In this document: positions 34,365-40,075 of the stretch, in pieces | How the letters are laid out: each line of letters starts with the position of its first letter | Numbering within the stretch: the stretch's first letter is position 1 | Assembly: GCA_003635195.1 (NCBI GenBank) | Contig: PYIY01000078.1 | Location: 1 to 64,000, forward strand | Length of the DNA stretch: 64,000 nt | From: Candidatus Poribacteria bacterium | GTDB taxonomy: Bacteria; Poribacteria; WGA-4E; WGA-3G | Direction of reading: 5' to 3' | Notes under the pieces: model-generated | Told to the model about the DNA's origin: nothing | Database searches by the model: none | What the model saw: the letters and a program-made list of their open reading frames with translations, nothing else | Program-made: the position numbers and the translations under genes

Positions 34365-36959
<2,595 letters not shown>

Positions 36960-37011
36960 AGGAGTAGTTCCTAAACAGCTCTTTTTCTGTGTTTTTCTTG
37001 AATTTTCTGTG

Positions 37012-37346
37012 TGAAACGGTAAACGAGAGGCGTTTCTGTGGGGTTCGATTCCACACTACCGTATTGCGTAGGGGTGTGCGATAACCACGCACAAGAGACA
37101 AAAACCATGTCTTTGCTACGCAAAAGGTTCGGACGCGAGTGAGACGAACCTTGACAGTGTGAGGACACTCGGAAACCATGAGAAAGCGTCAGTCTTTCGG
37201 GACTGACTTTGAGGGTTACTCCACGTAGCGCGTTTCCTTTGCTACGTGCGAATCGCCTGCTATCTTCTATGACGTGCATAGACGACCCTGGATGCGGGCA
37301 GGTTAGACACGACGGTGTCTACGAAGGGACTTAAGGAATCCCGTAG
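37012..37346 (+). ncRNA. Putative structured RNA, module 1, in gyrB-gyrA gap
   Basis: At least nine perfect short helices by eye incl. TTGCGTAG/CTACGCAA (37064-71/37116-23), AAGGTTCG/CGAACCTT (37124-31/37145-52), CACGTAGC/GCTACGTG (37222-29/37241-48), GTCAGTC/GACTGAC (37188-94/37201-07), TAGACAC-gacg-GTGTCTA (37304-21). Confidence 0.55.
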
Positions 37347-37407
37347 AGAACTGTGTTTTTCAAATGGACATAGATTAACATAGTTTTTTGCTAACAGGAT
37401 TTATAAG

Positions 37408-37507
37408 GCGTTGCTTGGTAATCCCGAGCACTATGGTCGGGTAACTTATATAGTTACTCTTCTCATTGAAAAGGGATGTTCACTTCAATAGGTGAGCATC
37501 GCAACGC
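37408..37507 (+). ncRNA. Putative structured RNA, module 2: multi-arm junction upstream of gyrA
   Basis: Closing helix GCGTTGC/GCAACGC (37408-14/37501-07) encloses CCCGA/TCGGG, TAACT/AGTTA, CTCTT/AAGGG and 9-bp TGTTCACTT-caat-AGGTGAGCA. Confidence 0.55.
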
Positions 37508-37522
37508 GCCATAATTAATTAT

Positions 37523-40075
37523 ATGCAAAATATCCAAGAACGCAACATAGAAAATGAACTGACAACCTCATATCTCACCTATGCGATGAGCGTTAACACC
37601 AATCGCGCGATACCTGATGTTCGGGACGGTCTCAAACCAAGTACGCGTCGGATTATCTATGCTATGGGAGAGATAAATCTCACAGCGAACCGGCCCTATG
37701 ACAAGTGCGCCGCTGTCGTTGGGGAGGTGATGAAGAACTATCATCCACATGGTGATGGACCTATTTATGGTACACTTGTCGGCTTAGCACAACCGTTTAG
37801 CACGCGATATCCGCTCGTAGATGGACAAGGAAACTTCGGCAGCATTGACGACGATCCACCCGGCGCGATGCGCTATACAGAATGCCGACTTGCAGCTATC
37901 GCCGAGGAGATGCTCACTGACATTGATAAGCAGGTGGTTGATTTTCAACCCAACTACAAGGATTCCCTCGAAGAACCAACAGTTCTTCCCGGTCTTCTTC
38001 CTAACCTGCTTGTCAACGGTACAACGGGTATTGGTGTTGGTTACCTCACTCGTATACCGCCGCACAACTTGAGTGAAGTGATTGACGCACTGCTTCACAA
38101 ACTCTCGGACCCGGACGCTAACTCAGAAACGCTAATGGAACATATCATAGGCCCCGACTTTCCGACCGCAGGAGTTATCGTTGGTACCAGCGGCATCAAG
38201 GAAATGTACACGACTGGCAGAGGAAGTATTACTGTCCGTGCCAAAGCGATCATAGAAAGAGTTACCACGCCTCGCGGCGAAACTGAGCAGGAACAGATAG
38301 TTATCACCGAAATCCCATATCAGGTAAAGAAAAATCAGTTACTTGAGCAAATGTATCAATTGGTAGTCAACAAAACCATCACTGGGATTAGCGACATCCG
38401 AGATGAGTCTGACAAAGAGATCCGTATCGTCATACCCCTCAAACGCGGAGAGATCGCTCAGGTTATTCTGAATCAGTTATATAAACACTCAAAAATGCAG
38501 ACGCACTTCAGCGCGAACCTTCTCTGCCTCGTAGAAGGGCTTCCAAAGGTTCTAAACCTTGAAGCAATTCTGCACTACTATCTTGAACATCGCCGAGATG
38601 TAGTTCGCCGGCGCACACAATTTGAACTCGCTCGTGCCGAACGCAGAAGCCACATCCTTGAAGGTTACTTACTGGCACTGCAAAATCTTGAGGCGATTAT
38701 AGAACTTGTTCAAACTGCTGAATCCCCACAGGCAGCAGAACAAGAACTCCAAGAAACGTATCAACTCAGTGAACAACAAGCAAGAGAAATTCTCACCATG
38801 ACGCTCCGCCAGTTGACCGGGCTTGAACGTCAGCGTATCCATGTTGAATACACGGAGCTGTTGGATCATATTGCTGAATTTCGCGCAATCCTTGCCAGTG
38901 AAACCTTGATAACGGATATTATCCGAACAGAGCTTGAAACCCTTAGAGAAAAATACGGAGATGAGCGCCGGACCGAAATTACCGGCGAGGTCAGAGAATT
39001 TGAGGTTGAAGATCTTATTGCTGACGAAGAGATGGTAGTTACATTATCCCACGCTGGCTACATCAAACGGTTGCCTATGGATACCTATCGGAAACAGCAT
39101 CGCGGAGGCGTTGGGATTAGGGGGGCGGCGACAAAGGATGGGGATTTTTTGGAACACATCTTTGTTGCAACTGCCCATCAGAACATTTTGTTCTTCACGG
39201 ATCGGGGCAAGTGCTATACATTGAAAGTATACCAAATTCCTGAAGCCCGCCGTCAATCAACGGGGCGCGCAGTGGTTAACTTGCTCAAATTGGCACGCGA
39301 CGAGAACATTACTGCTTATGTTACAGTTCGTCCTAAAACCGGCAACAAAGAAATGGAAGAAAATGATGCCCGCAAAACTGTAATGGATGCTGCCGAAACT
39401 ACAGGAAATGAATTCGTTTTCATGGCAACGCAGCAAGGCATTGTTAAAAAGACAGAACTCGCTAAATTTGAAAACACCTTGTCGAACGGCATTATTGCTG
39501 TTAATCTTGATGATGGTGACAAACTCATTGGCGCGCAAGTAACAAAAGGCACTTCTGATGTCATCCTTGTTACTCACAAAGGCACCGCTATTCGGTTCAG
39601 CGAGAAAGATGCCAGACCTCTTGGACGCAACACGCGCGGGATGCGTGGCATAGCCCTCGGTGCTGATGACTTTGTCGCACAAATGGTTATTGTTAACGGT
39701 GAGGAGGCTGAAGCGAAAGAAGCCCAACAAAGAACTGCTAAAGACGCTGACACTTTACTGATTGTCACAGAAAACGGATATGGCAAGCGCACGGCTGTCT
39801 CCGCTTATCGTTCCCAAAAACGTGGTGGGAAAGGTATCATCGCTATTGGAAAGTCTTCCCGAAATGGTGCTGTTGTCGCCGCAAAGCGTGTCGCAGATAC
39901 TGATGAACTCGTTCTTATTAGTTCAAACGGGTACGTCACTCGGACAGCTGTTGGTGACATTCGACGTATCGGGCGAAATACCCAAGGTGTGCGCATCATG
40001 ACACTTCAAGCCGACGAAAAACTTGTTGATGCCGCTAAAATTGAACTTTCGTCTTCTTTGCTTGAGGATCCATAG
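37523..40075 (+). CDS. gyrA: DNA gyrase subunit A
   Basis: SYLTYAMSVNTNRAIPDVRDGLKPSTRRIIYAM, PHGDGPIYGTLVGLAQPFSTRYPLVDGQGNFGSIDDDPPGAMRYTE; beta-pinwheel repeats. Confidence 0.96.
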   Translation: MQNIQERNIENELTTSYLTYAMSVNTNRAIPDVRDGLKPSTRRIIYAMGEINLTANRPYDKCAAVVGEVMKNYHPHGDGPIYGTLVGLAQPFSTRYPLVDGQGNFGSIDDDPPGAMRYTECRLAAIAEEMLTDIDKQVVDFQPNYKDSLEEPTVLPGLLPNLLVNGTTGIGVGYLTRIPPHNLSEVIDALLHKLSDPDANSETLMEHIIGPDFPTAGVIVGTSGIKEMYTTGRGSITVRAKAIIERVTTPRGETEQEQIVITEIPYQVKKNQLLEQMYQLVVNKTITGISDIRDESDKEIRIVIPLKRGEIAQVILNQLYKHSKMQTHFSANLLCLVEGLPKVLNLEAILHYYLEHRRDVVRRRTQFELARAERRSHILEGYLLALQNLEAIIELVQTAESPQAAEQELQETYQLSEQQAREILTMTLRQLTGLERQRIHVEYTELLDHIAEFRAILASETLITDIIRTELETLREKYGDERRTEITGEVREFEVEDLIADEEMVVTLSHAGYIKRLPMDTYRKQHRGGVGIRGAATKDGDFLEHIFVATAHQNILFFTDRGKCYTLKVYQIPEARRQSTGRAVVNLLKLARDENITAYVTVRPKTGNKEMEENDARKTVMDAAETTGNEFVFMATQQGIVKKTELAKFENTLSNGIIAVNLDDGDKLIGAQVTKGTSDVILVTHKGTAIRFSEKDARPLGRNTRGMRGIALGADDFVAQMVIVNGEEAEAKEAQQRTAKDADTLLIVTENGYGKRTAVSAYRSQKRGGKGIIAIGKSSRNGAVVAAKRVADTDELVLISSNGYVTRTAVGDIRRIGRNTQGVRIMTLQADEKLVDAAKIELSSSLLEDP

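Follow-up and report, generated by a model that had tools for sequence, protein, structure and literature searches.

A probable IS607-family element carrying structured RNA in place of tnpA and tnpB, inserted at a Shine-Dalgarno sequence between gyrB and gyrA in a Candidatus Poribacteria bacterium

The closest described systems are the IS607 TnpA/TnpB elements with a guide RNA (reRNA or omegaRNA; the RAGATH-18 group) and the IS607-type IStrons. For IS607 TnpBs, experiments gave AGGAG as the target-adjacent motif (TAM) in 18 of 22 strains, and one such TnpB bound an RNA of 184 nt; that paper mentions neither the Shine-Dalgarno sequence nor the ribosome (PMC11061315). TnpB processes its own mRNA into omegaRNA (PMC10278001). 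The IStrons reported so far are confined to Firmicutes and Fusobacteria (PMC4227781).

The window analyzed here, a stretch of 64,000 nucleotides, comes from a sponge-associated Candidatus Poribacteria bacterium, in keeping with the relatives of its gyrA. Its gyrB (34443-36959, stop codon 36957-36959) and gyrA (37523-40075) genes are separated by a gap of 563 bp (36960-37522) that holds no convincing ORF, as an earlier note on this DNA had stated. The same note described the gap as dense in helices, and this was borne out. Every helix that it named exists, including TTGCGTAG/CTACGCAA (37064-37071/37116-37123), AAGGTTCG/CGAACCTT (37124-37131/37145-37152), CACGTAGC/GCTACGTG (37222-37229/37241-37248) and GTCAGTC/GACTGAC, and the single-sequence fold of the gap was much more stable than dinucleotide shuffles (z = -6.6, with 0 of 100 shuffles equally stable). 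The structure that the note assigned to 37012-37346 is real, but those bounds do not follow its two units, which are a 5' RNA module (37016-37211) and, after it, a guide RNA with the right end (37214-37397). Although the helices had been seen, the pseudoknot stem 37136-37141/37166-37171, the tRNA-like domain, the multicopy nature of the sequence and its insertion site had been overlooked. The features are as follows.

36960-36964, + strand: AGGAG, a pre-existing Shine-Dalgarno sequence serving as target and TAM, assigned from empty sites and the TAM in PMC11061315.
36965-37397, + strand, 433 bp: the whole mobile element, with no protein gene, delimited by copies with unrelated flanks, a copy in the same genome and empty sites.
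36965-37012, + strand: left end (LE) of IS607 type, 87-89% identical to the LE of tnpA-tnpB elements (L045-L047), one of them in this genome.
37016-37211, + strand, about 195 nt: novel 5' RNA module, defined by covariance model R1 and a 28-sequence alignment.
37016-37062, + strand: tRNA-like domain with acceptor-like ACGGTA/TACCGT, a D-like hairpin (37022-37034) with a GG loop and a T-arm (37038-37056) with the loop TTCGATT.
37064-37123, + strand: three-way junction with stem 37064-37071/37116-37123 and hairpins 37075-37093 and 37095-37113, both with RAACCA-type loops.
37125-37171, + strand: H-type pseudoknot, AGGTTC/GAACCT (37125-37130/37146-37151) crossed by CGAGTG/CACTCG (37136-37141/37166-37171).
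37188-37207, + strand: GTCAGTC/GACTGAC hairpin that links module and guide RNA, with two-sided changes in 4 of 7 pairs.
37214-37397, + strand, 184 nt: putative TnpB guide-RNA scaffold (omegaRNA/reRNA) and right end, assigned by covariation and by alignment to the 3' termini of IS607 elements that carry tnpB.
37398-37417 (length approximate), + strand: predicted guide segment, host sequence downstream of the element, placed from the architecture in PMC11061315.
37408-37510, between the element and gyrA: module 2, a stem GCGTTGC/GCAACGC enclosing hairpins.

A second copy in the same genome is 94% identical over query positions 1-439. Matches were found in 22 of 60 related genomes, all of the same genus, one of these genomes having nine matches, and dozens of related copies occur in the same Poribacteria family. 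In aligned full-length copies with unrelated flanks both junctions are sharp, falling between (A)AGGAG and TAGTTCCTAAAYAG on the left and directly after ACTAACAG on the right. Once 36965-37397 is removed, the gyrB-gyrA gaps of five other Poribacteria align to the window with no break where the element had stood. These empty sites (L100, L102, L128, L132 and L133) read GGTGCCTAAAGGAGGA(T/C) and continue into the same gyrA leader that follows 37397 in the window. Since all five carry AGGAG, the motif predates the insertion. Comparison of the window minus the element with the five sites showed that the insertion is precise and duplicated no more of the target than a dinucleotide core, for which AG, as the crossover dinucleotide, is the likely candidate.

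Two further loci were recorded in this survey. Between gyrB and gyrA of another species lies a solo omegaRNA/right end without left end or module (L105:2805-2977), so the gyrA start site has been struck more than once. A long, near-perfect AT-rich hairpin at L041:1358-1422, scored by Rfam as a miRNA (mir-208, below gathering), is probably a MITE or a terminator.

Over its leftmost 53 bp the query matches the left ends of complete elements in which a gene for a resolvase-domain protein comes first and a gene for TnpB second. A complete tnpA-tnpB element of this kind is present in the same genome (G000:C169; L045/L161). TnpA of the complete elements matches Resolvase PF00239 (serine recombinase) at 5.8e-17, together with a MerR-type HTH below cut-off, and their TnpB matches Cas12f1-like TNB. 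On these sequence comparisons, the window element is almost certainly a non-autonomous IS607-family transposon that carries RNA instead of tnpA and tnpB. The multiple copies and IS607 ends agree with the "mobile RNA" that had been proposed for the gap, while the accompanying word "relic" is doubtful, as the ends, TAM and guide RNA appear intact. Elements that are truncated or hold only TnpB were also seen, with the same left end and likewise at AGGAG (L048 and L049); a start codon follows the right end of L048.

In complete elements, the counterpart of 37214-37397 in the alignment is the stretch that covers the end of tnpB and what follows it. Across 36 complete and gene-less copies, 24 of the 45 pairs predicted show two-sided compensatory changes; variants of the right end (CUAAC, GGAAC and AGAAC) covary with their 5' partner strands. 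The shared 3' alignment and the compensatory pairs argue that this segment is a TnpB omegaRNA scaffold; it has no match to Rfam RAGATH-18. End-to-end pairing had also been considered for the right-end variation, which is explained instead by pairing within the omegaRNA. The TnpB element of the same genome has the right end AAGAACAG and the window element GCTAACAG. As the guide scaffolds covary with this difference, the resident TnpB may not be the cognate of the window element.

AGGAG is the core of the Shine-Dalgarno sequence, and it or a near variant stands at the left end of most copies. Where the right end of a tnpA-bearing element could be read, a start codon lies 3-11 nt downstream in every case (17 of 17). 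Of the 43 RNA-bearing copies, 37 have a start codon 2-15 nt past the right end that opens an ORF of 60 aa or more. The window copy, parted from gyrA by module 2, is one of the six without a near start codon of this kind; in three others of the six (L034, L043 and L090) an ATG stands at 8 nt and its ORF meets an early in-frame TGA. The background for AGGAG in the whole window under the same loose start-codon rule is 26%, which gives p ~3e-16 for the RNA-bearing and ~1e-10 for the tnpA-bearing set, with copies treated as independent although orthologous pairs are not. Copies precede gyrA and rplV-like, rplR-like, acpP-like and pup-like genes, and some of them lie in gene clusters. Because AGGAG also occurs inside genes, the bias toward start sites means that insertions elsewhere were lost, that the target is wider, or both. 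The coincidence of TAM and Shine-Dalgarno sequence is unremarked in the open-access literature searched, and its novelty is provisional.

The gene directly after the element at L034, L043 and L090, in three species, encodes a small HMA-like protein with the in-frame TGA in the context GMT(TGA)GxC. This protein is a candidate selenoprotein.

The 5' RNA module occupies the place of tnpA-tnpB between the left end and the omegaRNA; all elements in which it was found lack tnpA/tnpB ORFs. Across 28 copies, 96.4% of cells pair and 19 of 53 pairs show two-sided changes, amounting to 148 two-sided compensatory cells against 52 in shuffles; slid controls drop to 31-42% paired. Rfam returned nothing at gathering and nothing relevant at relaxed E-value for the window and 18 related loci. 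Comparison with Rfam and a covariation analysis of relatives were among the checks that the earlier note had proposed, and with no known class matched and strong covariation its suggestion of a new ncRNA stands. Model R1 matches 22 of 87 genomes of the Poribacteria phylum, all in one family.

Within the tRNA-like domain, the T-loop reads TTCRANT in 32 of 33 copies and its stem covaries. A weak mascRNA-menRNA (tRNA-like) match was obtained in L025 and L082, below the gathering score, and ARAGORN detected no tRNA or tmRNA in the gap. A tmRNA, including a permuted form, was considered for the T-arm and rejected; neither Rfam nor ARAGORN gave a match, and weak matches in other copies span the T-arm only. 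The outer stem and both hairpins of the three-way junction show two-sided compensatory changes, and the pseudoknot is paired in 100% of cells in the 28 copies. Copies from another genus (G066) stand before rplV-like and other genes and have a left end related to that of the window element; their second pseudoknot stem differs in sequence through compensatory changes, yet all 6 positions still pair. A search of viral contigs for the pseudoknot core pattern gave 0 exact matches.

A second, divergent module type has the same order of parts, with RAACCA loops, an H-type pseudoknot (CCGC/GCGG crossed by CGTCG/CGACG), a hairpin and an omegaRNA, at about seven loci. Loci of this type (L188-L194, L085-L088 and L092) precede acpP-like, rplR-like and other genes. 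Model R2, built on the tRNA-like domain alone, matches mainly these elements and a few phage-like loci. Stand-alone mini tRNA-like structures with an acceptor, a D-like hairpin and a canonical T-arm, and without omegaRNA, were observed at L082:175-223, L083, L084, L091 and G083:C54:23252-23300; some lie just past stop codons, in gene clusters that are apparently phage- or plasmid-like.

Diverged orthologs of module 2 are present in the gyrB-gyrA gaps of several relatives, between the Shine-Dalgarno sequence and the start codon. Its recurrence at the same place points to an inherited gyrA leader older than the element, possibly a structured one. Module 2 was also considered as a second transposon and rejected, as there is no other copy in its own genome and the relatives have it at the same place.

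From known IS607 and TnpB biology, TnpA supplied by a complete copy would move the window element in trans. TnpB combined with the omegaRNA of the element, its guide read from 37398 on, would cut element-free gyrB-gyrA alleles and so favor retention; AGGAG followed by GATTTATAAGGCGTTG is the DNA that an IS607 TnpB with the 37214-37417 RNA would cleave. By analogy with the described elements, mobilization in trans by TnpA and retention through TnpB are likely. The 5' module, in turn, would act in cis as a leader of the host transcript, its compact folded RNA replacing the translated tnpA-tnpB stretch. An untranslated 430-nt insert in an operon would thereby spare the next gene, which would be protected from polarity or decay and translated from whatever Shine-Dalgarno remnant stands at the right end. 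Taken as a whole, this explanation (identity, mobilization in trans, retention and leader) is the best available and commands good confidence.

The leader role of the module, keeping the downstream gene expressed, is put forward tentatively. It is favored by the occurrence of the module in ORF-less elements, by its position nearly always in the expected leader of a host gene, and by conservation resembling that of coding sequence in L043 and L090. In these loci, which have a decayed left end and a shortened omegaRNA, the module and the coding sequence are each 85% identical and the upstream DNA 71%; as one orthologous pair, they offer thin evidence of constraint in cis. Nevertheless, tnpA-tnpB elements occupy sites of this kind with no module, so tolerance in itself does not depend on it. 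Ranked close behind is a role in trans, which is about as tentative, in which the module would give the omegaRNA a stable or processed 5' end (the tRNA-like fold as an RNase P site, the pseudoknot as an exonuclease block) for loading by TnpB made elsewhere. The module is fused directly to the omegaRNA (37188-37214), has its tRNA-like domain at the 5' end, and is seen only in ORF-less elements, which are unable to cut omegaRNA from a tnpB mRNA in the way known for TnpB (PMC10278001). However, copies whose omegaRNA is shortened and whose left end is not intact (L040, L042, L043 and L090) still have the module, and the tRNA-like domain has no CCA end. It is unlikely that the module represents a new class of catalytic or ribosome-interacting RNA that neutralizes Shine-Dalgarno insertions by a non-group-I route; if it did, the elements would be "RNA-only" guests of bacterial mRNA leaders.

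Distinctly improbable is a new kind of IStron, in which the module would be a self-splicing core unrelated to group I that splices the element out of the mRNA and so reunites the Shine-Dalgarno sequence with the start codon. Such an arrangement has a parallel in ORF-less IS607-type IStrons with a 5'-side structured RNA and IS607 ends (PMC4227781), and many copies would regain AGGAG at its usual spacing if they were excised at the AG dinucleotides. Against it, 58% of known IStron insertions are intragenic (PMC4227781) and no intragenic copy was found here; copies without a left end keep intact downstream genes; and complete tnpA-tnpB elements without the module share the same sites, making splicing unnecessary to explain tolerance. 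Pairing of the left and right ends, which could close an intron and unite Shine-Dalgarno sequence and start codon, reaches 9 bp in some copies, with a compensatory case in L036, but was rejected as it has two mismatches in the class of the window. A group I intron was rejected too, RF00028 giving no match over cut-off in 39 genomes and none in the gap up to E = 5. The intron suggested at the outset is therefore not supported: nothing in the genus matches group I above cut-off, and the copies precede start codons, with none found inside a gene. A host-encoded gyrA leader or riboswitch can be very nearly discounted for 36965-37397. The dense structure directly upstream of gyrA invites this reading, which the earlier note had raised in the form of a gyrA leader and which holds by position only: the element is an insertion, absent from the gyrB-gyrA gaps of relatives with an exact empty site, and its copies precede unrelated genes. 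The empty sites rule out a host riboswitch here; module 2 (37408-37510) may still be a leader or riboswitch of the host.

With AGGAG as their TAM, IS607 TnpB elements of Poribacteria are placed between the ribosome-binding site and the start codon in nearly every case examined, housekeeping genes included. They provide a natural case of guide RNA embedded within mRNA leaders and a test case for how cells tolerate insertions at the start sites of essential genes. The RNA family that stands where transposase genes would be, which covaries and contains both a pseudoknot and a tRNA-like domain, is a new RNA class to solve.

Like the RAGATH-18 group (PMC11061315), the elements described here have a serine-recombinase TnpA and TnpB in complete copies, an AGGAG TAM at the left end, a right-end guide scaffold of about 184 nt (the bound RNA in that paper also measures 184 nt) and no target duplication beyond the crossover dinucleotide. 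The window copy differs in lacking tnpA and tnpB and in carrying an extra 195-nt structured RNA; its scaffold has no Rfam RAGATH-18 match and its host belongs to the phylum Poribacteria. The closest architectural parallel is found in the ORF-less IS607 IStrons (group B, IS607 type; PMC4227781), which are likewise chimeras of structured RNA and IS607 ends, with ORF-less copies and the structured RNA on the 5' side, whereas the module RNA has no group I match and none of the copies found here is intragenic. In contrast to mascRNA and minimal tRNA-like structures, the domain of the module is bacterial, forms part of a larger RNA and has no CCA end, while sharing with them an acceptor-like stem, a short D-like hairpin with GG and a canonical T-arm.
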